A stretch of DNA of 35,025 bases from Cyclobacteriaceae bacterium (GCA_013140555.1 JABFSO010000051.1:1-35025), one strand, 5' to 3'; counted from the first letter of the stretch, positions 1,601-16,407 are shown. Made by a program: numbers and translations. The notes: generated by a model not told the origin, from the sequence alone.

Positions 1601-4600
1601 TTAATTTTTTGCTGGAAAATAAGAACCTATAGCTCCGTCTGACATATAATAAAAATGTATTTCTACTTTTCCATCGCTTGATAATCCAAAATATTCATTA
1701 CTACCGGGCTTTGTAGGATCATATTTTCCATTATTATTTGCAATTGCATACTCTACTTCATCTAATATTTTAGCCTCATTCCAAGCATCTGGGAAGAATG
1801 TAGATTTACCCGCATTATTTGTCTTAACTAATTCAGTACCATTTTGCAATTTGATTACTGGGTTAGCTTCATACACTCCATTACCGCTTGCATCCATTAC
1901 CTTGTTTCTAAATTCAAATGTTGCTGTTCGGTTGTTGGCTATGTAGTCATCTAATGCAATTTTACTATGACATCCGTTAAAACCTGTGTTGCTAGCATTG
2001 ATATCTATTCTTAAAACATGAGATTTTTTAGCTATTACTTTATTTGTAATGTCAGTGACTTCAATCCAATTGGCGTGTTTGATACCAAGCCAATTTTTAA
2101 TGTTCTGGAATTCTGCTTCAGAAACATTCTTCGGCTTATATCCCTTCGTAGCTAAATAATTTAGCTCCTGAGCGTAAGCGCCTTTTAAATTCCCTGCTGC
2201 ATCAACTATATCTGCTTTGGTAGGAATTGTGGCAAGATAAATGTCATCTCCTCTCTCAATTGCCTTCTCAAGCCAAGGTTTGTTGTAAGCGCTCCACCAA
2301 GAAGATGCATCATAATAGTAATCAGGTTTATTAAGAATATTTATGCCTCCCTTTGTTTCGCCAAGTCCCACATTTTTAAACGAACCAAATTCATTAAGTA
2401 GATTTGCAATGTCAGGCCTAAATCTCCCAAGTATTGTGGTTACCTTACTTGTACTGAGCGAAACGGTTCTTCCGGAAATAGTTAATTGCCTTGAAACAAC
2501 TCCCGAAAGCACTTTTAACTTATCAGAATTGGTCAATAATAAATCTGATAATTTGGTTTTAAACACATCATCACTAACATTTAATACAGATGACTTGAAT
2601 GCTCCAAAGTCATCATTGAAAACAGCAAAAGCATTATAGTTGCCGTTAGTGTTTCCCAATAATATTCTACCATCATCCAAGTCAAATTTAACATAGTAGC
2701 CATCGGTTAAAACCGCATCATACAAAGATGTACCCGTTTCATTTGCAAAAGATTTTGCATTTGATAAAACATTAGTATTGGGGTTGGCCCAAATTAAATT
2801 TGTTTCGTCAAGGTTCTTCCATGAAATATTTTCAGAAGATGCCTTACCTATTAATTTATTTAGTGAGCCAGATATAATACCATTATTACTTGCGACAACT
2901 TTACTGCTTTCGATATAATTCGCTTGGTCGTCTAAAAGCTCTACAAATTCTTCTTGCTGAGAAAGTTTTTGTTTAGTCGCATCATCCAAGTTATCCCAAC
3001 CACCTCCAGGCCTTTTAAGATCGGCAAGGTATTTTTTAAATGTTTGGATCTGAACCGATAAAAATAAGCGTAAACTTTGTTTGTTTTGAATAGCTGTATT
3101 AACGTAATCGGGGATATTTTTTATTACATTCTTTACTCCTTTGGCTGCATTTTTTAATCCCACGACTGCCATCACTACATTGAAGGCGTTTACGGTCTTA
3201 GCATAGTTTGAATTGGGGTCGATGCTTCCCGTGTTGATAGCAATATTACTTCCAGCTGCCACTATTTCAGTAATTGCCCAGATTCTCCTTGCCCAAGTAA
3301 CCTTTGTTGCAAGAGCGACACCACCACTTGTTGCGATTGTGATGGCATCAAAGGTGATCATAACACCTTTTTCTACTGCGTCATTAAATTCCTTTTGTGT
3401 TTTGTATTGCAAAAAAATAGCAGGTACTACGCAAAGGTTTTCTCCTATCGGTTCAATTCCATTTATCACAGATTCAACTAAAGGGAGTTCCTGCTTAGTC
3501 AATATTATAATAGGGTCAAGAGGACTTAATTGGACCGGATCAAAGTCATCGTCTTTTACCCAAGATGGGACTGAAATGCTTCCATTTGGGGAGGTCGTAG
3601 AGACTAAGTATTTGACATACCTTTTTATTTCGACTCTAGCTCCATTTAGATCACCTTCAAATTTGGCTTCTCCAAGCGCTGGCATTAAAATATCAATGAT
3701 TGGTCCATTGCTTGGCGCAGAGAACTTGAAAGGAGCCAATGAAACAACCTGCCCAATAAGATCTGTGTTTGTAAAAGGCTTTATTCTTTCTATCCAGATT
3801 TCAGGCTTGAGTTTGTAAATAGCACAAAGACCACTAATGAAAGACGTGAAATTATCACCATCCCAAGGATTAATAGATTTGTCTTGAATTTTGGAAATTA
3901 GGTTCAATAACAACTTGTTATCTGCTTTCTCAAGTAATGCGATAAAATCTTTGTAATTAGAAGAATTGATTGCTGACATCAATCGCAAGATTGTTATCTC
4001 CCTTTTCTCCCATATCGACTCACTCGAATTTCCCAACTGTTCAATCCCTTTACTCAAATTTTCCCAGGTCAACCTTCTAAGGGCTGCTAAACAGACACCT
4101 CCGTCATATACCAAACCGGTTAATTCATCATTAGTGAAACTTTGTCTGGCAAAAAGCTTTTCTAATTTTTCAGAATCTGATTCAATTTTTAAAATTGAGC
4201 ATTGATTTGAATTTTTATCCTTTGAAATCAAGGACAATAGAGAGTTTATCATTGTACATGAGGCATCTGGTTTGAATAAGCTTAATGTCTCCCAGTTTGG
4301 CTTTTGCTCATTGATTTTTAATTTAATGGTCTCTTTTATTGAAGTGGGATCCGAAGGTTTTACCCAAGCAGTTAAATTGCATATACTATAAGTACATTGA
4401 TCGTTTAGGATCGCAATCATTGCATTCCCAGAACTCGAGACTTCAACAGAATAGGGCATCTCTTTACTTGATGCATCTCGATAAACTACTTTTCCAGCTT
4501 CTATAAAAGCGTTGTAAGAAGCTAAAAGGGTTTTGCTCTCATCATCCGTATATTCACGGTATCCTGTTCTCAAATAGGGTCTATCTTTGTCTAGTGTTCC

Positions 4601-7429
4601 GACCAGTTTCCTACCTGGAACTCCAAATACAACTCTTGTAATAATGTTACCAACCAAATCAATGCCATCGTTAATTCTATTTTCCGAATCCTTATCATCC
4701 TCAAACAATCCCATCACAATCTCCGGATAGCGCATCCTGTCCCATTGGTATTTGTATAATGCAGTGCCAGACAATGTATAATCCATCAGGTTGTTGGTAC
4801 TTCCTTGAGGCTTCATTGTATATTTCTCATCCGCAAATGGGTGCTGCAGCGTAAATGCGCCATGGCCCAACTCATGCGCTATCGTGCGGACTATCGCTTC
4901 CTCGCTGCCATTTTTATCAACGAAAATAAATCCGCACTCTTTGCTGCGTGGCATGAAGCCCGCCAACGTGCTTCTCTTGGGGTTCTTTACTAAAAACAAA
5001 TAGTAGGTATTAGGCTGTAGGTTTGCCTTGTAGGCATTCACTACTTTGCGCATGTCGGGGCTGTAGTTACTCAGCAGTCCACTGCCGCCATCGTCAAACG
5101 GATCGATACCCGGCACATCGAAATTGGAAGCAAAGGTGATGTTCCACTTTACTACTGCCTGTCCATAAATTTTATTGAGTTGTGTGCGCAGTACATCTTC
5201 GCTGTAAGGATACTTGTTTCCATTTACCGGAACGATCACCAAGTCTTTAACAATTTGATCGTAGGTAATCACACTCAGTTTACCTAGGACTTGAGTCTTG
5301 GTCACTGGTGAATTGTCATTGGTCACTGGGGCTTGCGCATCGTAGAGAGCGATGAGTTCGCTTTCCACACCGTCTCCGGCACCTAAAATGCTAATAGTAG
5401 ATTGGTCATTGGTCATTGAGGTGGAGCCACCATTGACTAGTGACCATTGACTATTGACCATTGCCCCATTAAGTTCAAAGCGTATCTTTGATTTATCGAT
5501 GCCAGTCCCTTCAAGCTGCGCAATGACATTGTCGGCCTGCCCTGTGGCAACAGACTTCCACGAGAGGTATTGGTCTTCTACTTTTGTGTAGGTAGACGCA
5601 ATCGGATCATACCGTTTTGCATCAAAGCCAAACTTCTGATCTTGTGCTTCTGCAAACTTTAATTTGAGGTTGTACTCGCGCTTAGCAGCTGCTGTTGCAA
5701 TAGCGGCTGTGGTGGTGTGTACTTTTCCTTTACTGTCAATAATATATCCTTTGCCACTGCTATCTACCACCGAAGCAGTAGTACCCGCAGGTACTTCCGT
5801 GCGCTTACCGCTTCCATCTACAATCACCACGCTACCATTGCTGCCTGGCGTAACCGTAGCTGTGCCCGGCACGGTGATTAGTGTGCTGGTGACGGCTGCG
5901 TTTTCATCAAACTGTTGGGGAAGATTCCTCTCAATGCTATCGAGTTTTTGATCGATCTTGTTCAACGTCTCGCTCAAATCATCCATCAGAGCCATCACGC
6001 CTGCTGGGATCACTTCTACTCCGGCTCCGGTCACGTTCATGTAACCGTTCACCATCCGCATTTCATTGTTGACGTTGATGTTGGTGAACTCGGCTTTTAC
6101 TTTTGCCTGATTGAAATACGAAACTTCAATCACGCCCTCACCCGAGAAGGTGCCGTTGCTGCCTGACACTTTACTGAGCACCACATCAAAATCTCCTGCC
6201 TTAATGACATCGCCTATTTTCAAGCTATTGATTAACTGCGAGGGGTCCAGATTAAATGGAGTAAGTGGAACACCACATGAATATTGAATGCCCGGATTAT
6301 CTTTGGTGGTCACATTTGTCACTAGCGAATAGTCACTCGTGAAGGTGCCACAACCGGCATTGACTTGAAATTCGTAGCGTGTGTTTGGCTGAAGTGAGTT
6401 GACGGTCACATTTGGCGTAAGTGATTGATTCGTGTACCAGTTACCCGTATTTGCAAATCGATAGCGCAGCGCATAAGTCGTTTGATTCGATGCTCCATCC
6501 CAACTCACATTAAAGCGCGTAGTTCCCACATCGCTAACCGAAATATTTTTTGGAGGTAAACAGGCATCGCCATATACAAATGTGTAGACCTGACTGTAGC
6601 CATTGTTTTTGAAAAGACTTAGTTCGTCCGCACCCGCATACGCATGTGCACGCAGCTGAAACGCATAGCGCCTGCCCGGCTCCAGCGGTGTTTCGGCAGG
6701 GCCATAGATGATTGTCGTTTCACTGGTCGTAGTTTGAAAAATAACCGGTGACGTTAATATCGCATCATTCGGGTTGCGTGTGGACGGCCAAACTTCCACT
6801 AACTTAAAATCATACTCCGCATTGAATGCGCTGTTGGGGGTGCCCCGATGGCGAGGTGTCCACTGGAAGATAACTTGTTGTGGATCTTGAATGCGAATCT
6901 TCTCATTGTCGGCCGGCACGTTTACAATAGGAGGATCATTTAAAATCAACCAAGCTACTGCGCATCCGGTATTCGAAATTTTAACACCGCGATTGTATTC
7001 GATTACTTCAAAACAAAATTGATAAAGGCCTTCCGGCAAAGCACCGCGTTGTTCGATCTCGCGTTGCGTGATGCCGGTGAAATTTAAATTGCGCGGATCG
7101 AAGTAAGCCGCCAGATCAGAGCTGATCAATTGCAATGGTACACCACCCAACAACGTAACAGGCGGTGGCATGAACTCCGGCTTCGTCTCAATTTTTATTC
7201 CATTGCCCTCGATGCGTAAGCGAAAGCGAACGTTCAGTTCAGGACGGGTAGCATCAATCAGGAAAGCCGTTACCCGTAATCGCTCCGAACCCGGTGCCGC
7301 ATAATCCGACAGGTACAATGAATACGGAGGCGTCAACTGCACCGTGGATTGGACGGGGAAGACTTGGCCCTCACTCATTAATGAGGCCACCGTCAATAAA
7401 AAAAGTAATATGGTTTTAATTCGTGTCAA
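1601..7429 (-). CDS. Polymorphic toxin: signal peptide, TANFOR-like/Fn3 N-terminus, HELGH metallopeptidase motif, hydrophobic segment, C-terminal bacterial EndoU-like nuclease
   Basis: N-term LLFLLTVASLMSEGQ signal. GITQREIEQRGALPEGLYQFCFEVIEY..GCAVAWLILNDPPIVNVPADNEKI resembles the TANFOR domain. Fn3 near CLPPKNISVSDVGTTRFNVSW. TIAHELGHGAFTLQHPF motif. C-term GVYEANPVIKLQNGTE..KSTFFPDAWNEAKILDEVEYAIANN..YFGLSSDGKVEIHFYYMSDGAIGSYFPAKN matches my recollection of the EndoU_bacteria pattern. Start codon in the track is TTG. Confidence 0.8.
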   Translation of the reverse strand: MTRIKTILLFLLTVASLMSEGQVFPVQSTVQLTPPYSLYLSDYAAPGSERLRVTAFLIDATRPELNVRFRLRIEGNGIKIETKPEFMPPPVTLLGGVPLQLISSDLAAYFDPRNLNFTGITQREIEQRGALPEGLYQFCFEVIEYNRGVKISNTGCAVAWLILNDPPIVNVPADNEKIRIQDPQQVIFQWTPRHRGTPNSAFNAEYDFKLVEVWPSTRNPNDAILTSPVIFQTTTSETTIIYGPAETPLEPGRRYAFQLRAHAYAGADELSLFKNNGYSQVYTFVYGDACLPPKNISVSDVGTTRFNVSWDGASNQTTYALRYRFANTGNWYTNQSLTPNVTVNSLQPNTRYEFQVNAGCGTFTSDYSLVTNVTTKDNPGIQYSCGVPLTPFNLDPSQLINSLKIGDVIKAGDFDVVLSKVSGSNGTFSGEGVIEVSYFNQAKVKAEFTNINVNNEMRMVNGYMNVTGAGVEVIPAGVMALMDDLSETLNKIDQKLDSIERNLPQQFDENAAVTSTLITVPGTATVTPGSNGSVVIVDGSGKRTEVPAGTTASVVDSSGKGYIIDSKGKVHTTTAAIATAAAKREYNLKLKFAEAQDQKFGFDAKRYDPIASTYTKVEDQYLSWKSVATGQADNVIAQLEGTGIDKSKIRFELNGAMVNSQWSLVNGGSTSMTNDQSTISILGAGDGVESELIALYDAQAPVTNDNSPVTKTQVLGKLSVITYDQIVKDLVIVPVNGNKYPYSEDVLRTQLNKIYGQAVVKWNITFASNFDVPGIDPFDDGGSGLLSNYSPDMRKVVNAYKANLQPNTYYLFLVKNPKRSTLAGFMPRSKECGFIFVDKNGSEEAIVRTIAHELGHGAFTLQHPFADEKYTMKPQGSTNNLMDYTLSGTALYKYQWDRMRYPEIVMGLFEDDKDSENRINDGIDLVGNIITRVVFGVPGRKLVGTLDKDRPYLRTGYREYTDDESKTLLASYNAFIEAGKVVYRDASSKEMPYSVEVSSSGNAMIAILNDQCTYSICNLTAWVKPSDPTSIKETIKLKINEQKPNWETLSLFKPDASCTMINSLLSLISKDKNSNQCSILKIESDSEKLEKLFARQSFTNDELTGLVYDGGVCLAALRRLTWENLSKGIEQLGNSSESIWEKREITILRLMSAINSSNYKDFIALLEKADNKLLLNLISKIQDKSINPWDGDNFTSFISGLCAIYKLKPEIWIERIKPFTNTDLIGQVVSLAPFKFSAPSNGPIIDILMPALGEAKFEGDLNGARVEIKRYVKYLVSTTSPNGSISVPSWVKDDDFDPVQLSPLDPIIILTKQELPLVESVINGIEPIGENLCVVPAIFLQYKTQKEFNDAVEKGVMITFDAITIATSGGVALATKVTWARRIWAITEIVAAGSNIAINTGSIDPNSNYAKTVNAFNVVMAVVGLKNAAKGVKNVIKNIPDYVNTAIQNKQSLRLFLSVQIQTFKKYLADLKRPGGGWDNLDDATKQKLSQQEEFVELLDDQANYIESSKVVASNNGIISGSLNKLIGKASSENISWKNLDETNLIWANPNTNVLSNAKSFANETGTSLYDAVLTDGYYVKFDLDDGRILLGNTNGNYNAFAVFNDDFGAFKSSVLNVSDDVFKTKLSDLLLTNSDKLKVLSGVVSRQLTISGRTVSLSTSKVTTILGRFRPDIANLLNEFGSFKNVGLGETKGGINILNKPDYYYDASSWWSAYNKPWLEKAIERGDDIYLATIPTKADIVDAAGNLKGAYAQELNYLATKGYKPKNVSEAEFQNIKNWLGIKHANWIEVTDITNKVIAKKSHVLRIDINASNTGFNGCHSKIALDDYIANNRTATFEFRNKVMDASGNGVYEANPVIKLQNGTELVKTNNAGKSTFFPDAWNEAKILDEVEYAIANNNGKYDPTKPGSNEYFGLSSDGKVEIHFYYMSDGAIGSYFPAKN
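5283..5331. repeat. Intragenic heptamer-type repeats
   Basis: cctaggacttgagtcttggtcactggtgaattgtcattggtcactgggg: GGACTTG-type plus TTGGTCA-type units, in frame inside the toxin CDS. Confidence 0.6.
5401..5466. repeat. Intragenic inverted TTGGTCA/TGACCAA heptamer arrays around a GGTGG-AG-CCACC palindrome
   Basis: attggtcattggtcattgaggtggagccaccattgactagtgaccattgactattgaccattgc; the right half is the opposite orientation of the left half. Confidence 0.7.
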
Positions 7430-7553
7430 TGGTCAGTGGTCAATAGTCAATAGTCATTGGTCATTAAGTCATTAGTCATTAAGTCGATAGTCATTGGTCA
7501 TTAAGTCAATAGTTAGTAGATGGTCTTACTAATGAATATTGACAAATGACTAT
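7426..7553. repeat. Heptanucleotide array (TCATTGG / TCATTAG / TCAATAG), with opposite-orientation remnants at its right end
   Basis: tcaatgg tcagtgg tcaatag tcaatag tcattgg tcattaag tcattag tcattaag tcgatag tcattgg tcattaag tcaatag: period 7 with occasional 8; then actaatgaatattgacaaatgacta. Confidence 0.85.
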
Positions 7554-7967
7554 CTATATATCATTTAAGCCATAGGGTTCTATTGGTTCATTTATTTCTT
7601 TTGAGTCTGGTTTCGGGCCGATCGTTTTTATATAGTTGTTTAGCATTTTTACTAAAATAGTCAATGAAGCAGAATACTCGGAAAATCTTTGCTCACTTAT
7701 TAGGTTCCGGTTTTTAGCCTTCGTCAACCAAGTCTTTGTTTCGTACAGAGAACCACGAGAATAATAGGCAAAATTCTTTTCTTCCTTAAAATGATATCTG
7801 CCATAACCTTCACTCAAATTTGCCGCAATAGAATCTACTGCTCGTATCAATTGCTTTCCTACCGTGTCCTTTTCTAAATAATTCCAACCGGTTACATCCT
7901 GCCACACTTTCTCTCCTATTTCCATTGCCTGATTGTAAATCTTCAAATCATTCAAGTTTTTGCTCAT
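7554..7967 (-). CDS. Four-helix-bundle protein (23S rRNA intervening-sequence protein / S23 family)
   Basis: LKIYNQAMEIGEKVWQ...GKQLIRAVDSIAANLSEGYGRYHFKEEKNFAYYSRGSLYETKTWLTKAKNRNLIS is the hallmark pattern of this family. Confidence 0.9.
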   Translation of the reverse strand: MSKNLNDLKIYNQAMEIGEKVWQDVTGWNYLEKDTVGKQLIRAVDSIAANLSEGYGRYHFKEEKNFAYYSRGSLYETKTWLTKAKNRNLISEQRFSEYSASLTILVKMLNNYIKTIGPKPDSKEINEPIEPYGLNDI

Positions 7968-7993
7968 ATCCTCACCGCTTACCTGTACTAAAC

Positions 7994-8066
7994 ATTGGTC
8001 ATAGGTATTGATTACAAATGACTAATGACTACTGTCTATTGACCAATGACTAATGACCATTGACCA
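7994..8066. repeat. Heptanucleotide array, inverted relative to the 7426 array
   Basis: aaatgactaatgactactgtctattgaccaatgactaatgaccattgacca; one forward unit (attggtcatagg) at the left end. Confidence 0.8.
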
Positions 8067-8070
8067 GCAA

Positions 8071-9837
8071 CTAAAACGAATACACATACCCAAGCGTGGC
8101 AGTAAATTCCGTGAAGGATTTTGCTGCGCCTTCTTGTACGCTGTTTCGATTTACTACTACTGTGCTTAAGTTAATATTATGTTTCTTTTTAATCGACACG
8201 TTGCCGGACAATCGGCCATTTAAAATACTTCCGGTATGCAAACCATTGGCATACGACTCGTTGTGCGAGATCGAAGCGGTGGTTCGTAACTTTTTTTCAA
8301 AGAACTGTTTTGTAACTGCTACCGTTGGACCGAAGGTGCGTGACTGCGATGCAACGCCATCGCTCATACTTAAATTGAATGAAGTTGAAAGAGTTAAGCT
8401 CTGTGGCGTGAGCGACAGGCTATAGGATGAATTGAAATTATAAAACCGCAATCCGGAATTTTGTTCTACTTGTCCCTGCTTATCAGAAGCATCTTGCGCG
8501 GTCAGGTTAAGGCTGATAGTTTGTCGCCTGTTTTTATTGTTGCCCAACTGATACATGGAATTAATGTTGGCGTTCTGGCTGATTTGTGTGAAGTTGAGTG
8601 TATCTAAAAAATCAAACTGTGTGAGTCGGTTGATGTTCACAAACTGCGAACGGACATTGGTGAACGATTGAAAGCTCGAATAGGAAACTGACAAATTAAA
8701 TTTCTGTGACGGTGCAAAGGCTACATTCAAAGCTGTCACCACCCGCCTCATGGTAGTGGCTTTGCTCTCATCGAGGTTATCGCGCTGCGTGCCTACGTTG
8801 GCCGACAAATTTACTTTGCCCTGTAGTACTGACGTGGCCGCGTTGACTGTAATGTTTTCTAAGTCGTTGTTGAAAAAATAGGAGCCTAATGTTCTGTATT
8901 GCGGGTCGATGCGTTCGTAACCCATTCCCACTGAATAACCGTTGCCCTGGTAGGTGACATTGGCCTTCATCGCATTGTAGTAAGATGATGATGTGCGCGG
9001 AGTGAATAGGCCACCCACATTACCTAACGGATTTTCAGTGGTGGTTTGACCTGCGCGCGTATCTCTGGTGATCGCGCTGGTAGCCCACTCAAATCGTAGT
9101 AATAATTTTTGGAACAATGATTTGCCTCCGGTAAATCCCAGAACTAAATTTTCCTGCGGCAAGATGCCTTGTGTCTCGGGTACGAAACGGATTGATTGCT
9201 GTTCGTCCTGTGCGCGGAACACAATGGCTTCCACAAAATCTTTTCCATCGCCATAGCCAACCTTCATGCCATATCCATAACGATCATACGCAGCTTGTAC
9301 TCTTGATCCGGCCGTTGTGTCGGGCTGAACCGCTTTTAAAAAGCGACCATAGAGCGCACTGATTCGTAATTTACTAGTTGGATTCGCATCTACTCCTACT
9401 CCACTGAATAAGTGACCACCTACGGTGTAAGGCGAAAAATTCATACTCGTAAATCCGGCATGAAGCGTAATCCACTTGTAGGTGGGATGCATTGAAAATT
9501 GATTGAAGGGTTGCTGGAATGAAACTCCCTGATTGGAGTAACTAAAGCTCAGCGGAATACTCCAACCATACAAACTCACATTCAAATTTCCGGTAGCATA
9601 ATACGAATAGGGATCACGCCTGCTGTCGATTCCACTGGCGGCATATCCAATCTGACTCAACGAAACACCACCTGATAATTTTATTGGTTTCTCTTTACCG
9701 ATGGTCTCCAAGTTCTGCGAAAAACTATTGAGAGAAAGAAAAAGCAGACATACCAATACAATGACCTTTGGACTTAGGACTTGGGTATTAGGCCAAGTCG
9801 CTACTCCAAAATCTTTGTATCTAAACAACGTGCTCAT
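8071..9837 (-). CDS. Putative outer-membrane beta-barrel protein
   Basis: Signal peptide VIVLVCLLFLSLNSFSQ, alternating-residue beta-strand pattern throughout, C-terminal ...FTATLGYVYSF ending in aromatic Phe. Confidence 0.75.
   Translation of the reverse strand: MSTLFRYKDFGVATWPNTQVLSPKVIVLVCLLFLSLNSFSQNLETIGKEKPIKLSGGVSLSQIGYAASGIDSRRDPYSYYATGNLNVSLYGWSIPLSFSYSNQGVSFQQPFNQFSMHPTYKWITLHAGFTSMNFSPYTVGGHLFSGVGVDANPTSKLRISALYGRFLKAVQPDTTAGSRVQAAYDRYGYGMKVGYGDGKDFVEAIVFRAQDEQQSIRFVPETQGILPQENLVLGFTGGKSLFQKLLLRFEWATSAITRDTRAGQTTTENPLGNVGGLFTPRTSSSYYNAMKANVTYQGNGYSVGMGYERIDPQYRTLGSYFFNNDLENITVNAATSVLQGKVNLSANVGTQRDNLDESKATTMRRVVTALNVAFAPSQKFNLSVSYSSFQSFTNVRSQFVNINRLTQFDFLDTLNFTQISQNANINSMYQLGNNKNRRQTISLNLTAQDASDKQGQVEQNSGLRFYNFNSSYSLSLTPQSLTLSTSFNLSMSDGVASQSRTFGPTVAVTKQFFEKKLRTTASISHNESYANGLHTGSILNGRLSGNVSIKKKHNINLSTVVVNRNSVQEGAAKSFTEFTATLGYVYSF
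9767..9800. repeat. Heptamer repeats (GGACTTA GGACTTG GGTATTA GG) inside the 5' end of the barrel gene
   Basis: tttggacttaggacttgggtattaggccaagtcg, encoding the N-region VATWPNTQVLSPK. Confidence 0.65.
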
Positions 9838-9884: not shown

Positions 9885-9918
9885 CCAAGTCCTAATCCCC
9901 AAGTCCCAAGTCCTAAAG
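9885..9918. repeat. Heptamer repeats CAAGTCC-TAATCCC-CAAGTCC-CAAGTCC-TAAAG overlapping the adhesin stop codon
   Basis: ccaagtcctaatccccaagtcccaagtcctaaag; the adhesin stop (cta, 9913-9915) lies in the last unit. Confidence 0.75.
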
Positions 9919-12900
9919 AATCACAATCCTCACCACTCGTTTTTGATCTTTTACATCTACTAATAAAAAATAAACACCCGGTGCTACTCCTTGCAATGTT
10001 ATTTCAAAATCGTAGGCATCCTTACCGCTATCACTAAAATCAGTGACGATCACATTACCTTCTAAACTTACCAACCGCACGCGCACGGGAGCCACCTCAT
10101 TTAATTCTAATTTTAAATTGATGAACCCTTGGGCCGTTGGGTTTGGAAATGCTTGGAGCAGTTTGATTAAGTCGGTGCTACCACCTCCCGATCCTCCACC
10201 TGTTTCTCCTGCCTTTAATATTTCTATTGACGCTGTGTATTCGCTTTGACACTCGGCTAATTTGGCCGTTATTTTCACCGGATAAACTCCTTCCTTCTTA
10301 AATAAAATAGATGAATAATCCTGCGATTGCAAAATGACAGTGGCCTCGGTTGGGAATGACCAGGTAATCTGATCCGGCAACGGCCAACTAATATCGATGA
10401 CAATAATCGTGTCATTCACATGAGCTTCGGGTGCCATCAAAAAGTCCGCTTTTAATAAATCATTGGATGTGGTGAGTTCGAATGAATCTTCGGCAATACA
10501 ACCATTGTTGTTCGTAACCCGAAGTTTGTAAACACCCGGTTGTGTCAATGTAACTTGCTTTCCTGTTTTGTTAAATCCTGCTAAGGAAGTCCACAAATAA
10601 TCTGCGGCATCGATGGGTGATGTAATCGTTAACGTACCGCCTGTACATATTTTTTTATCAGGACCTAAATCAATCGTAAACGGAGGAGGGTCAGTCATCG
10701 TAAACGATTTGGTAAAGGAACATCCATTGGCATCTTTTACCTCTAATTGAAAGTTGCCTGCTTTGATGTTTTGGATAAAAGAAGTTCCGGATTGACCGTT
10801 CCATTGAAATGAGTAAGGAGCTGTTCCGCCTGTGGCAGTGACTTGTATTGCGCCATTGCCTCCTGAGCAAACAGGAGCAAAAATTGTTTCAGCGATTAAT
10901 GAAATAGCCGAAGGAGAATTGACGGAAAAAGTTTGTTGCAATGAACAGCCATCGGCATCTGTTACTTTTACTGTATTGGTGCCGGCTACTAATTGCGTAG
11001 CGGCAACGGTTGTCTCTCCACTCGACCACAAATAAGTGTAAGGTGCCTTGCCCACTACATTAGCAACCACTGCCGATCCATCGGAAGAGATTGAACATTT
11101 TGTTGTAGTCACATTGGAGATTGAAAAACTTACATTCGTAGATGGAGCGATCGTAACTACTTTTGTGGATGTACATGAGTTTGCATCGGTGGTTATAATC
11201 TCGTAGTTACCGGCACTCGCATTTTGCAATGTGTTGGTAGAGGCTACTAATTGATTAGCTGAGTTGAACCATTGATAGGTATATGGTGCAGTGCCACCCG
11301 AACCGGAAGCTGTTGCAGATCCATTTGCTAATCCACAAGTGGTATTGGTAGTTGAACTAATCGTGCTCGATAAAACAGTTGGCTGTGTGATGACTACACT
11401 GGTCGTTCCGATACAGCCGTTGCTATCTCGTGTAGATGCCGTGAAGGTAGTAGCCGCTAAGCCGGTAAAAGTTGCCGATGTTTGCCACGTGCTTCCACCA
11501 TTGATGGAGTATTCATATGTTCCTGTTCCACCCGAAGCAGAAAGAGTAACACTTCCATTCGCGCCAGCAAAACAACTGACTTGTGTTGAGTTGACAATGG
11601 ATAAATTGAGAGCCGCAGGTGCGATCAATGTGATGGATTTTACTTGCGTACAATTCTTGGCATCTTTTGCTGTAACGGTGTAGGTTCCACCAACCAAGCC
11701 ATTGATCGATGCGCCTGTGGCTCCGGTATTCCAGGAATAGGTAAATCCTCCATTCCCTCCGGAAGAAGAAACTTGAATACTTCCATCTGCTGTTGCAGCA
11801 CAAGAAGGAGCTATCTGGTTTACGGTAGCAATGGTTATTGGAGCGGGATCGCTGAGTGTAATCGCTTGATTCAATGAACAGTTTTTAGAATCGTTGATCT
11901 GGAGATTATATGTGCCACTCGCAATTCCAGAAAGAATATTGGTTCCACTGGCGCCATTCCATTGATACGAATAGCCACCATTTCCTCCCACTGCTGTCAC
12001 TTGTATACTACCATTATTTCCGCCAACACAATCAGGAGAAGTATTAGTGATAGCACTCAAGGATATCGCTGCTGGTGATGGAATTGTAAATGTGGATGAC
12101 ACCGAACAATTGCCTGCATCTTTTATGGTGACCGAATTACTACCACCCGGTAATTGAATGGCTGACGTGCCTGTCTCTCCATTGCTCCAGGTGATTGTAA
12201 ATGGCCCTACTCCACTTGAAATATTTACTTGCGCTTTTCCATCGACTGAATTAAAACACGAAGTACTTACGAGTGAGCCCACCGTAAACACAGCTCCCCC
12301 ATTAGAGCCAACAGCTGTCGCGGAAGTTTTGGAGCACGAAAATTGATCGGTAACCGTTACCGAATAACTCCCACTAACGACATTTGATAAGGTAGAAGAA
12401 TTGCCAACAACATTGTTTGCCTGATCTCTCCACTGGTAGGTTAACGCACCCGTTCCACCGGATGCTATGGCTTGCACTGATCCGTCTGCCGCACCACAAT
12501 TCGCATTTTGAAATCCGGAAAAAGTGATTGTGATCGCAGCCGGTTGTGTAATGGATACCGCTAATGGAGTTGGGCTATTACAGTTATTCTGATCTCTTGT
12601 CAAAAATGTATAAGATCCTTGCGGCAAGGAAGTAAACGTATTACTTACCTGCCAAACGATACCGTCCTTTGAATAGTTATAAACTCCGGTACCACCCGCT
12701 GCACTGAGCGTTACAGCTCCATCGGTTCCACCATCACAGGTCACATTTGTTTTGTTTGTGAGTGCCACCGTAACCGTAGTTGGCGCTGTTAAGGTAGTAG
12801 ACGCTATGGCAGAACAAGATTTGGAGTCCATTATCGTTACCGAATACGTGCCAGCTGTTAAACCTGAAATATCTTTTACAGTTGCTCCATTCGACCATGT

Positions 12901-15900
12901 GTAGAAGTAGGGTGCTGTTCCTCCTGCTACAGTCAAATTTATAAAGCCTGTTGCAGCACCGTTACAGTTTACTCCAAAACCATTATAAGTTGAAGAGGTG
13001 GTGGATGCACTTAGCGCAACAGGTTGTGTAACTAAAAAACTGGCTGAACCTGTGCAGCCTTTTGAATCTGTAATTGCAACTGAATAGTTACCCGCTGCAA
13101 GAGAACTAATATTCTGTGAGGTTGCACCATTGCTCCAAAGGAAATTAAATGGTCCTGTTCCACCTGATACAGAAAGGTTAAGTGAGGCAGTACTTTGCCC
13201 GAAGCAATTGATGAAGACTGGTTGAGAAATGCTGCCGGCTATGGCAGTCACCGTAGTAATTGTTGCTGAACGTGTGATGGAACAATTGTTTGCATCTTTT
13301 ATGGTGATGGTATAATTGTTAGCATGCAGTCCGTTAAAAATCGAACTGAGTTGAAAATTTGTGCCATCAATGGAATACTGCAATGTGCCTGTTCCTCCGG
13401 AAGCCGAAACGGTCAATCGTCCGTCTGTGATGGCAGAACAACTTTGTGGTGAAGCTGTAACTGTAGCAGCGAGTGCGGCAGGGTTGACTAATGATTGAGA
13501 AGCCGAAACGACTGTACAATTATTTGCATCTTTTACAGTTACCACGTAATTGCCCGATGACAGTCCGCTAATTGTATTGGAGGAAAGAAAATTTGTTCCA
13601 TCAATAGAGTATTGATAGGGTGCGGTGCCACCAGTGACTGACACCACTAAACTGCCATTGGTATTTCCGTTACACAACGGATTATTTTTTACAATGCCCG
13701 AAATTGACAGTGCTGCAGATGGCTGCGTAATGCTGATAGCCGTAGTTACTTGCGTACAGTTATTTGCGTCTTTCGCTGTGATGGTGTAGTTGCCGGGAGC
13801 TAGACCCGTAAAGCTGGCGCTTGTTTGAAAATTGGTTCCGTCCTTACTGTACGTTATAGTTCCTGTTCCTCCGGATGCTGTTACAAGAATACTGCCATTC
13901 GACAAACCAAAACAAGTGACATTGGTTTTTGATTGTAGAGATACGGTTACAGCTGTAGCTGGTTCAGTAATAACAACGCTCGTGGAATTGTTGCTACAGA
14001 CATTCGCATCTGTTACCGTGACGGAATACGATCCAGACGCAAGTCCCGAAATATTTTGAGAGGTTGCGCCATTCGACCAAAGAAATGTTTTTGTACCTGT
14101 GCCTCCGTTTACCACGAGGTTAATACTTCCATTATTGCCGCCTTTACAACTGATATTGGTTGCACTCGGTGTAACGGTCAATACCGTTGGTTGAGTGATC
14201 GAAATACTTGCTGTTCCCGTACATGTTTTACTGTCTGTAATGGTGACATTGTAACTTCCTGCGGGAATGTTCGGATTGTTTTGAGTGGTAACACTATTCG
14301 ACCAAGAGTACGTATATGGCGCGGTGCCACCGGAAGGCGTTACGGATATAGAAGCTGTTGACTGGCCAAAACAATTAATAAATGAAGTTTGTGAAATAGT
14401 GCCGGTAATGGACGGCTGTAACGCAACCGCAGCGTTGTTGATGGTAAACTCACAACCATTCCCATCTTTTACTTTTAATACATACGTTGCTCCTGTCGCT
14501 AACGAAGAGAAAGTAATGCTTGCGCCAAACGCACCATTATTGATTGAGTAAGTATACGAGCCATTTCCTCCTGTTACACCGGTAATAGTGAGTGATCCAT
14601 CGTTGACTGCTGCACAACTTGCCGGCACAGAAGTATAGCTTGCTGCTATCGGAGTATTTACTACAAAATTAGATGTGTTAATAGAACATCCATTGGCATC
14701 TGTCACTTTTGCGTAATAGGTTCCGGCAGCTACACTGATTGCACTCGCCACTGCCGTTGATGCCGAAACAGCAACATTGGAAAGATTATAAATCTGCCAC
14801 GTGTATCCAGGAGTGCCACCGGATACTCCGGTGATGGAGATGGAGCCGGTAGTTGATGTGGCTCCCACGCATTGGGGGTGAATGATCGTAAAGGCACCTG
14901 GATTTATTAATACCGGCTGAAACACTTCAACCGCCAGTGTTCCGCTTTCACATCCATTTTGATCTTTTACTCTAAGTTGGTAAATGCCTGCTGTTAAGTT
15001 GGTAAAAGTATTTCCTGCTTGATAGGAGGCACCATTATTTTTACTGTATTGATAATTGCTTATTACTCCACCACCAACACCTCCACTTGGTGTAATTGTT
15101 AAAGCCCCTGAATTTCCTCCGTTGCATAGCACATCTGTCTTTGATGATGATCCAATTGTTACAACTGTTGGGGGAGAAATCGTAACTGATGGCGTTGACG
15201 TTAAAAGGCATCCATTTCCATCCTGTATTCCAAATATATAAGTACCTACACCAAGGCCAGCAAATACATTGCTAGCCTGATAAGCACCGGAATTTAATCT
15301 ATACTGTAAAGTACCCGTACCACCTCCTCCGGTAATTGTTATAATTCCATCTGTAGCAGTAGGGCAAGTTATTTGAGAACCACTATAATTGGAGGTTACT
15401 GAACCTGTAGCGGTAATTGTGGGTGGATTAGCAAAAGTGATAGCACTGGAAAAGCTCGCTGTTGAACAAGGAACAATATTGCTTTCGACCAAAACATAAT
15501 AGGTTCCTGGCGCTATCCCTGAGATACTATTCCCCGGACTGCTTTTATAAAAATAAATAGGATTTGCATCAGGCTGAGTGTAGAGCGAAGTTGAAACAAT
15601 ATTTTCGCCAAGTAATAAATTTCTATCAAATGAAGTAGAGGCTACGGGAATTGTTAACGATCCATTTGCTGAACCAACACATGTTATTTCATTCTTAACT
15701 ACCTGAGCAATATTCGTTTTAAGTGGATTTGGCGCAAACTTATATGGACCTATCGATGAAGAGTTAATGGCTGTGCAATTGCCAACAGAATATTGAAAGT
15801 ACACGTTTTGGTTAGATCCTAGTCCTAAAGCAGCTAATTCATTATAGCTAACAGAGATAGAATTTGTTGTTGATACCCTAAACGATTGGAATCCACTGGA

Positions 15901-16407
15901 GGAACTGCGACTATACTGCCAGTTGTATGAACCAAATCCACTTGTCGCGGTTAATAAGATGGATGAAGAACTAGCGCAATAGGTGACATTGACAGGTGGA
16001 CCCACAGGGGCACCTAGAATGGGCTCTATTGTAAATCCGATATTGCCTGAATAACATCCATTGTAGAAATAACTAAAGCTATCACAATCATTAAGACTTA
16101 GGCTTATGATCGGGTTATCACTACAAACTACAACAACATTATTACATTGTCCATCAGAAGTTTCTGAAGTTGAATTAATAACGAGTTCAGTTGGCTTATT
16201 ATTCCAAAAAGATGTACCAGCACCGCCATTCTCTGTGCTGTTTCTAATATAAGATGTAAAAGAAGATCCGTTGCATCCAGAAGCGCCATCGCTTTCAGAT
16301 CCTGAATAATTAGTAACCTTATACTTTTGAGCTAACAAAACTATAGGAGTACAAAAGGTTATAATTACAAAGGCTAGGATGTATTTCTTAGACATTACCC
16401 TTTTCAA
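9913..16407 (-). CDS. Very large SprB-repeat surface adhesin with PKD-like domain and T9SS type A sorting domain
   Basis: I count about 21 recurrences of the pattern C.G..(N/D)GS(I/L)xVxxSGGTgxYxYSW...GxYxVTVxDxxxC. C-terminal LLQAFPNPTAQGFINLKLEL...GVAPGVYFLLVDVKDQKRVVRIVIL is a type A CTD. Signal peptide near the start. Confidence 0.92.
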   Translation of the reverse strand: MKRVMSKKYILAFVIITFCTPIVLLAQKYKVTNYSGSESDGASGCNGSSFTSYIRNSTENGGAGTSFWNNKPTELVINSTSETSDGQCNNVVVVCSDNPIISLSLNDCDSFSYFYNGCYSGNIGFTIEPILGAPVGPPVNVTYCASSSSILLTATSGFGSYNWQYSRSSSSGFQSFRVSTTNSISVSYNELAALGLGSNQNVYFQYSVGNCTAINSSSIGPYKFAPNPLKTNIAQVVKNEITCVGSANGSLTIPVASTSFDRNLLLGENIVSTSLYTQPDANPIYFYKSSPGNSISGIAPGTYYVLVESNIVPCSTASFSSAITFANPPTITATGSVTSNYSGSQITCPTATDGIITITGGGGTGTLQYRLNSGAYQASNVFAGLGVGTYIFGIQDGNGCLLTSTPSVTISPPTVVTIGSSSKTDVLCNGGNSGALTITPSGGVGGGVISNYQYSKNNGASYQAGNTFTNLTAGIYQLRVKDQNGCESGTLAVEVFQPVLINPGAFTIIHPQCVGATSTTGSISITGVSGGTPGYTWQIYNLSNVAVSASTAVASAISVAAGTYYAKVTDANGCSINTSNFVVNTPIAASYTSVPASCAAVNDGSLTITGVTGGNGSYTYSINNGAFGASITFSSLATGATYVLKVKDGNGCEFTINNAAVALQPSITGTISQTSFINCFGQSTASISVTPSGGTAPYTYSWSNSVTTQNNPNIPAGSYNVTITDSKTCTGTASISITQPTVLTVTPSATNISCKGGNNGSINLVVNGGTGTKTFLWSNGATSQNISGLASGSYSVTVTDANVCSNNSTSVVITEPATAVTVSLQSKTNVTCFGLSNGSILVTASGGTGTITYSKDGTNFQTSASFTGLAPGNYTITAKDANNCTQVTTAISITQPSAALSISGIVKNNPLCNGNTNGSLVVSVTGGTAPYQYSIDGTNFLSSNTISGLSSGNYVVTVKDANNCTVVSASQSLVNPAALAATVTASPQSCSAITDGRLTVSASGGTGTLQYSIDGTNFQLSSIFNGLHANNYTITIKDANNCSITRSATITTVTAIAGSISQPVFINCFGQSTASLNLSVSGGTGPFNFLWSNGATSQNISSLAAGNYSVAITDSKGCTGSASFLVTQPVALSASTTSSTYNGFGVNCNGAATGFINLTVAGGTAPYFYTWSNGATVKDISGLTAGTYSVTIMDSKSCSAIASTTLTAPTTVTVALTNKTNVTCDGGTDGAVTLSAAGGTGVYNYSKDGIVWQVSNTFTSLPQGSYTFLTRDQNNCNSPTPLAVSITQPAAITITFSGFQNANCGAADGSVQAIASGGTGALTYQWRDQANNVVGNSSTLSNVVSGSYSVTVTDQFSCSKTSATAVGSNGGAVFTVGSLVSTSCFNSVDGKAQVNISSGVGPFTITWSNGETGTSAIQLPGGSNSVTIKDAGNCSVSSTFTIPSPAAISLSAITNTSPDCVGGNNGSIQVTAVGGNGGYSYQWNGASGTNILSGIASGTYNLQINDSKNCSLNQAITLSDPAPITIATVNQIAPSCAATADGSIQVSSSGGNGGFTYSWNTGATGASINGLVGGTYTVTAKDAKNCTQVKSITLIAPAALNLSIVNSTQVSCFAGANGSVTLSASGGTGTYEYSINGGSTWQTSATFTGLAATTFTASTRDSNGCIGTTSVVITQPTVLSSTISSTTNTTCGLANGSATASGSGGTAPYTYQWFNSANQLVASTNTLQNASAGNYEIITTDANSCTSTKVVTIAPSTNVSFSISNVTTTKCSISSDGSAVVANVVGKAPYTYLWSSGETTVAATQLVAGTNTVKVTDADGCSLQQTFSVNSPSAISLIAETIFAPVCSGGNGAIQVTATGGTAPYSFQWNGQSGTSFIQNIKAGNFQLEVKDANGCSFTKSFTMTDPPPFTIDLGPDKKICTGGTLTITSPIDAADYLWTSLAGFNKTGKQVTLTQPGVYKLRVTNNNGCIAEDSFELTTSNDLLKADFLMAPEAHVNDTIIVIDISWPLPDQITWSFPTEATVILQSQDYSSILFKKEGVYPVKITAKLAECQSEYTASIEILKAGETGGGSGGGSTDLIKLLQAFPNPTAQGFINLKLELNEVAPVRVRLVSLEGNVIVTDFSDSGKDAYDFEITLQGVAPGVYFLLVDVKDQKRVVRIVIL

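Follow-up and report, generated by a model that had tools for sequence, protein, structure and literature searches.

The 35,025-nt stretch analysed here (the window; contig C378 from the 4.78 Mb, 498-contig genome of a Cyclobacteriaceae bacterium, GCA_013140555.1) contains a small gene of the S23 four-helix-bundle family enclosed by two inverted arrays of a degenerate 7-nt unit. We suggest, with moderate confidence, that this cassette is a hairpin element of the intervening sequence (IVS) type known from 23S rRNA, lodged in an operon, and that S23 acts on heptamer hairpins in trans. What is shown here is the architecture of the cassette, its generality, the empty and alternative orthologous sites, the relatedness of arms and S23, the purifying selection on the gene and the association of distant arrays with S23. 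The layout is not peculiar to one locus and was found at most of the S23 genes examined.

The S23 gene occupies positions 7554–7967 on the minus strand and encodes 137 aa. It matched PF05635 (E = 1.5e-25, 89.9 bits with a cut-off of 33.8) over positions 2–106 of 106 and TIGR02436 (E = 5e-26, 91 bits with a cut-off of 24). Passing the curated cut-off across the whole domain, this open reading frame (ORF) is a member of the S23/23S_rRNA_IVP family. Two heptamer arrays, also on the minus strand, were located by Tandem Repeats Finder (TRF), a lag-7 autocorrelation scan and the predicted fold: the 5′ arm (in the sense of the transcript) at 8006–8074 and the inverted 3′ arm at 7420–7513. TRF itself delimited the period-7 arrays as 7425–7513 and 8017–8066. 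On the plus strand, the left array is built of TCATTGG, TCATTAG and TCAATGG, and the right array is its reverse complement. The inverted alignment of the arms scored 29.5 versus 8.84 ± 1.37 in 1000 dinucleotide shuffles (maximum 16.0; z = 15.1), and lag 7 was the strongest positive lag in each arm (z = 7.4 and 6.9). An earlier note on this DNA had described the gene as bracketed by inverted heptamer arrays, which TRF and the arm alignment bear out. The arrays do flank the gene on both sides, the right one abutting the stop codon of the upstream gene (8071–9837) and the left one extending to and including the TTG start (7429) of the downstream ORF (1601–7429), but they occupy roughly three quarters of the intergenic space and not nearly all of it, as the note had it. 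For the 653-nt cassette RNA, a minimum free energy of −162.9 kcal/mol was calculated (z = −2.9 versus 20 shuffles), and the predicted fold contains 48 arm-to-arm pairs, in which 8014–8071 pairs with 7432–7484 and the S23 ORF lies entirely in the loop. S23 is the only ORF of at least 80 aa between the host genes, and the cassette has no transposase gene.

The generality of this layout was assessed in the 110-nt flanks of S23 loci by alignment against dinucleotide shuffles, with the small-gene family PF05973 as a control. Inverted arms with z > 3 were present at 22/33 loci of the genus, 13/30 of the phylum, 51/78 of a cross-phylum set (named GTDB loci from many phyla) and 18/25 of Cyanobacteriota, and at 1/22 loci of the control family. 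The layout was seen in Bacteroidota and Cyanobacteriota, as well as in single loci of many further phyla. Direct repeats between the arms were far more weakly enriched than inverted ones, and the locus-averaged autocorrelation peaked at lags 7 and 14 only, while the control was flat at lag 7. The flanks of 60 further genus loci were inspected by eye, and heptamer-like arms were recognized at nearly all of them. Alignment with shuffles and a control family was used instead of RNAduplex energies for own versus cross-locus arms, which separated poorly because, whatever the locus, the 5′ arm tends to be G-rich and the 3′ arm C-rich.

The unit itself varies by locus, being GGGAACA in a Clostridiaceae genome, GGCACAA in Nitrospirae and TTAGTGG in Ruminococcus; TGACYAW is common to the window and the cyanobacterial loci L386, L387, L390 and L391. 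The PF05635 family was present in 61/63 genus genomes, in 233/297 genomes of the phylum sample and in 40/79 of the Cyanobacteriota sample. There are five PF05635 matches in the window's genome, one of them fragmentary, and the S23 loci examined there have short-repeat flanks of their own, with units of the GTTAATA, TTGTCAA, TGACYAW and CGAATTA types. Since these flanks differ, a single genome-wide unit marking S23 loci was rejected. Both neighbours were co-directional with S23 at 59 of the 61 callable genus and phylum loci (a raw count, with no small-gene baseline), at 57/63 cross-phylum loci and at 17/23 loci of Cyanobacteriota, which would fit the expression of S23 from a host promoter. In a KSB1 genome, two Acido-Lenti-1 RNA matches were also noted close to the S23 gene (L106:2986–3031 and 3559–3604).

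Orthologous junctions in relatives were searched for the empty site expected of a mobile cassette, which the earlier note had offered as an inference. The thiolase/acyl-CoA dehydrogenase junction, compared in 30 genus genomes, was empty in 7 (25–57 nt), short in 12 (81–187 nt, in most cases inverted heptamer arrays lacking S23) and full in 11 (393–532 nt, carrying an S23 cassette). The junction of the window was located by the upstream host gene (8071–9837, minus strand), which encodes 588 aa with no Pfam match. Three relatives share the host protein at 97% identity: L239 has the same S23 and unit as the window with a longer 3′ arm, L237 has a different S23 (58% identical) with the unit GGACTTG/TTAGGGG, and L238 has a decayed remnant of the L237-type cassette. 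Further units were found in L240 and L242, and the junction is empty in L241, L244 and L246. Other junctions in these close relatives hold single-arm scars, short hairpins and replaced cassettes. In the fatty-acid operon of the window's genome, two junctions have an identical TTGACAA array start, one with S23 and one without. These empty, short, full and swapped states indicate that cassettes are gained, lost and exchanged over a short time scale. The empty sites are too diverged or scarred for the exact element ends, and hence a target-site duplication, to be read. The idea of an inserted cassette is well supported by the empty, hairpin-only and differently occupied sites and by arms and S23 being related as a unit; what these sites demonstrate is presence, absence and replacement rather than transposition itself.

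In L198 and L357, arrays enter the host stop codon in heptamer phase, and TTGACAA arrays coincide with TGA stops that are TAG or TAA in relatives. Such in-phase entry (e.g., AAATTGA CAGTTGA) prompted the idea that the array unit may be seeded by a host stop or start codon.

The variable junctions could also be left by a DNA element that ends in terminal inverted repeats, relies on a transposase from another part of the genome and has S23 as its cargo or accessory protein. Inverted ends, empty sites, replaced cassettes and S23-less short forms all suit such an element. However, the ends have no fixed sequence and a unit varying by locus, unlike ordinary transposon ends. Neither a target duplication (no systematic search made) nor a candidate transposase (no genome-wide search made) was identified, and we consider this explanation quite improbable.

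The arms and the gene are related to each other. At 80 genus loci, the 4-mer similarity of the arrays increased with S23 identity, with a Mantel r of 0.18 for different junctions and 0.78 for the same junction, and at 81 phylum-wide and cross-phylum loci r was 0.35; none of these values was matched in 2000 permutations. The trend did not reach significance when loci of a single genome were compared (p = 0.09). The ratio of nonsynonymous to synonymous substitution rates (dN/dS) of S23 had a median of 0.084 and a range of 0.02–0.22 in 22 pairs, and for the window S23 and its closest orthologue in L239, dS was 0.24 and dN 0.012. Judging by these ratios, S23 is under purifying selection. Both results bear on the possibility that the repeats are passive, i.e., that replication slippage and template switching in hairpins generate the arrays and keep them changing, with S23 as a passenger that happens to be retained between them. 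The arm length does shift between the close relatives L236 and L239, as slippage would have it, but passive turnover accounts neither for the period of 7 shared by unrelated phyla, nor for the purifying selection on S23, nor for arms that follow S23 relatedness at different junctions.

S23 genes are not the only places with arrays, since S23-less hairpins and unpaired arrays occur in the very genomes bearing S23. TGACYAW arrays were found at about ten more sites in the window's genome, mostly unpaired, two of them within ORFs. One of these two (5299–5470, minus strand; identified by TRF, the lag-7 scan and alignment with three relatives) is in frame within ORF 1601–7429, and in the relatives (L361–L363) the frame is kept with different units or lengths, or with a deletion. 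Such arrays without S23, even in frame within a gene and with changing units, would also be consistent with passive repeats. Several TGACYAW arrays sit at contig ends (L013, L023, L026); therefore, the assembly probably breaks at these repeats, and too few of them are counted.

For array calling, a strict lag-7 threshold missed known arrays and was hence relaxed, with other lags serving as the internal control. In a 400-kb sample of the genus genome G056, 17 lag-7 arrays were called, none within an ORF, versus 0–5 at the remaining lags between 4 and 13. The association with S23 was examined in 11 genomes with PF05635 matches and 11 without, including five same-genus pairs. In all, 37 arrays were found in approximately 1.13 Mb of S23-bearing genomes and none in approximately 0.76 Mb of S23-less ones, where one S23-less genome supplied only 4 kb and the base composition differs between the groups except in the pairs. 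Nine of the 11 S23-bearing genomes and 0/11 S23-less genomes were array-positive (one-sided Fisher p = 1.1e-4). None of the 37 arrays was within 900 bp of an S23 gene; therefore, the association with S23 is one in trans. The absence of distant arrays in 11/11 sampled S23-less genomes is not explained by passive turnover, which we regard as a rather unlikely account. Arrays thus do associate with S23 genes, and the gene is not always found without arrays at orthologous loci, so that neither of the outcomes named in the earlier note as speaking against its reading was seen.

REPIN/RAYT systems combine numerous short gene-less hairpin elements with a small number of genes presumed to work on these elements in trans. 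The present case resembles them in having S23-less hairpins alongside S23 genes and differs in that S23 is not a known nuclease and the hairpin ends have no fixed sequence.

The closest counterpart of the cassette is the IVS in the 23S rRNA of Coxiella burnetii, in which inverted ends form a stem with the S23p ORF in the loop; the stem is cut by RNase III in vitro, and the 5′ arm contains two or three tandem heptamers, the number varying among strains (PMC4990558). rRNA insertions in the candidate phyla radiation (CPR) may also carry the S23 family (PMC11270868). The window insert likewise has complementary ends forming a stem; its loop holds the S23 ORF, its 5′ arm contains heptamers and the heptamer copy number varies. 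Unlike the rRNA IVS, it lies between protein genes of an operon, both of its arms are full heptamer arrays and the unit differs between loci. By position, the window cassette falls outside the rRNA IVSs.

Short tandemly repeated repetitive (STRR) heptamers of Cyanobacteria form hairpins, and their function was described as unknown (PMC2670836). Heptamer repeats were also reported in Xanthomonas and Nostoc (PMC4692102) and in Beggiatoaceae, Cyanobacteria and Bacteroidetes, where no mechanism of horizontal transfer was evident to the authors (PMC4679880). The arrays described here share with them (PMC2670836, PMC4692102, PMC4679880) degenerate 7-bp tandem units, an intergenic location, the capacity to form hairpins, a genome-wide distribution and variable length. 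Unlike those repeats as published, they flank S23 genes as inverted pairs, and arrays far from such genes accompany the presence of S23. In the P6b region of the Nostoc tRNA-Leu(UAA) group I intron, degenerate heptanucleotide repeats pair into a hairpin with a varying copy number (PMC3488679), but these repeats are inside an intron and have no S23 gene. No publication tying intergenic S23 genes to heptamer arrays was found in the open-access literature, although a subscription paper is possible.

PF05635 structurally resembles Avd, the four-helix-bundle protein of diversity-generating retroelements (PMC10053308). This resemblance would suit a retro-element in which S23 would work with a host reverse transcriptase copying hairpin RNA into DNA, and the transcription-wise orientation of S23 at nearly all genus and phylum loci is what an RNA intermediate would favour, though the need for expression also explains it. 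The profile search found the solved PF05635 members 2GSC and 2RLD and did not match Avd. Unlike in Avd systems, no reverse transcriptase was present among the 15 window proteins scanned with Pfam, and no template/variable repeat pair turned up, without a dedicated search. We consider a retro-element very improbable.

Based on the above, we return to the hairpin element with S23 acting in trans and suggest the following course of events. The element, which we read as a free-standing relative of the 23S rRNA IVS, consists of inverted arrays of a 7-nt unit as arms and a loop carrying one gene, S23, and lies in a short gap between two same-strand genes. In operon orientation, S23 can be expressed from the host promoter and is presumably co-transcribed with the host operon. 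The arms can pair into a long stem, which, by analogy with the Coxiella IVS in vitro, would be cut as RNA by RNase III, so that the host mRNA would be split at a harmless place; excision without religation, a trait of the IVS, would extend to the window cassette by the same analogy. Most likely, S23 binds heptamer hairpins and acts in trans, helping both complete cassettes and the hairpins and arrays that lack S23 at other genomic sites to be gained, copied or maintained, because the shared architecture and the trans association are read most economically in this way. The chemistry of mobility, like co-transcription, RNase III cutting and S23 binding, is something we infer.

Several observations weigh against this reading. 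Neither the window nor the surroundings of 19 other S23 loci gave an rRNA match, and S23 genes as rRNA insertions were accordingly rejected for these 20 loci. At a slightly lower threshold, one array appeared in the S23-less genome G101, and samples of two S23-bearing genomes contained no arrays. The 22 sampled genomes are few, mutually related and not phylogenetically independent. To our knowledge, no enzymatic activity is known for S23. Finally, G·U wobbles in the stems (174) were not commoner than A·C mismatches (200), and the maintenance of arms by RNA pairing, which predicted an excess of G·U, was rejected. The stems therefore give no indication that pairing has been selected on the RNA strand; the arms may form or be corrected in DNA, or only a short part of the stem may need to pair. 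The lack of a wobble preference, expected if arms are corrected in DNA, would suit passive repeats and also an element with terminal inverted repeats.

The stem composition speaks against a domesticated regulator, i.e., an S23 that would bind the hairpin in the mRNA of its operon and thereby regulate the neighbouring genes through processing, stability or translation. Such a role would match the recurring positions in conserved operons (junctions of fatty-acid oxidation, argC/D, suf, met, mraZ-rsmH and grpE-dnaJ type), the co-direction of S23 with the operon, the purifying selection and the suggested effect of cyanobacterial heptamer hairpins on transcript stability or translational coupling (PMC2670836). 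However, the same junctions are empty, hairpin-only or occupied by unrelated cassettes in relatives, so that no operon requires the cassette, and we find this role unlikely.

As for the surroundings, the S23 gene interrupts a same-strand run of exported-type proteins (fn3/EndoU and SprB/tail of the type IX secretion system, T9SS), as the earlier note had it. The downstream host gene (1601–7429, minus strand) encodes 1942 aa with an fn3 domain and a C-terminal bacterial EndoU nuclease domain (residues 1843–1940), which suggests a polymorphic-toxin-like protein. A weak period-7 array (CCAAGTC) at 9885–9913, between genes 8071–9837 and 9913–16407, is possibly a one-arm remnant.

What S23/IVS proteins do and how intergenic heptamer repeats arose are two separate questions in the publications considered here. 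We tentatively propose, as a possibility held with less confidence than the reading of the window cassette, that S23 and inverted heptamer arrays together make up a single hairpin element system of ancient origin and two parts, present in many phyla, in which S23 creates, copies or maintains hairpins in trans; this would explain both the S23-bearing rRNA IVSs and the STRR-like intergenic heptamers of Cyanobacteria, Bacteroidota and others. The link between S23 and heptamers across phyla, together with the lack of distant arrays in the sampled S23-less genomes, makes both the role of S23 and the origin of the repeats testable in common laboratory strains. Should S23 indeed act on these hairpins, it would represent a novel type of hairpin-element protein whose natural targets in each genome are many and whose unit varies by locus.

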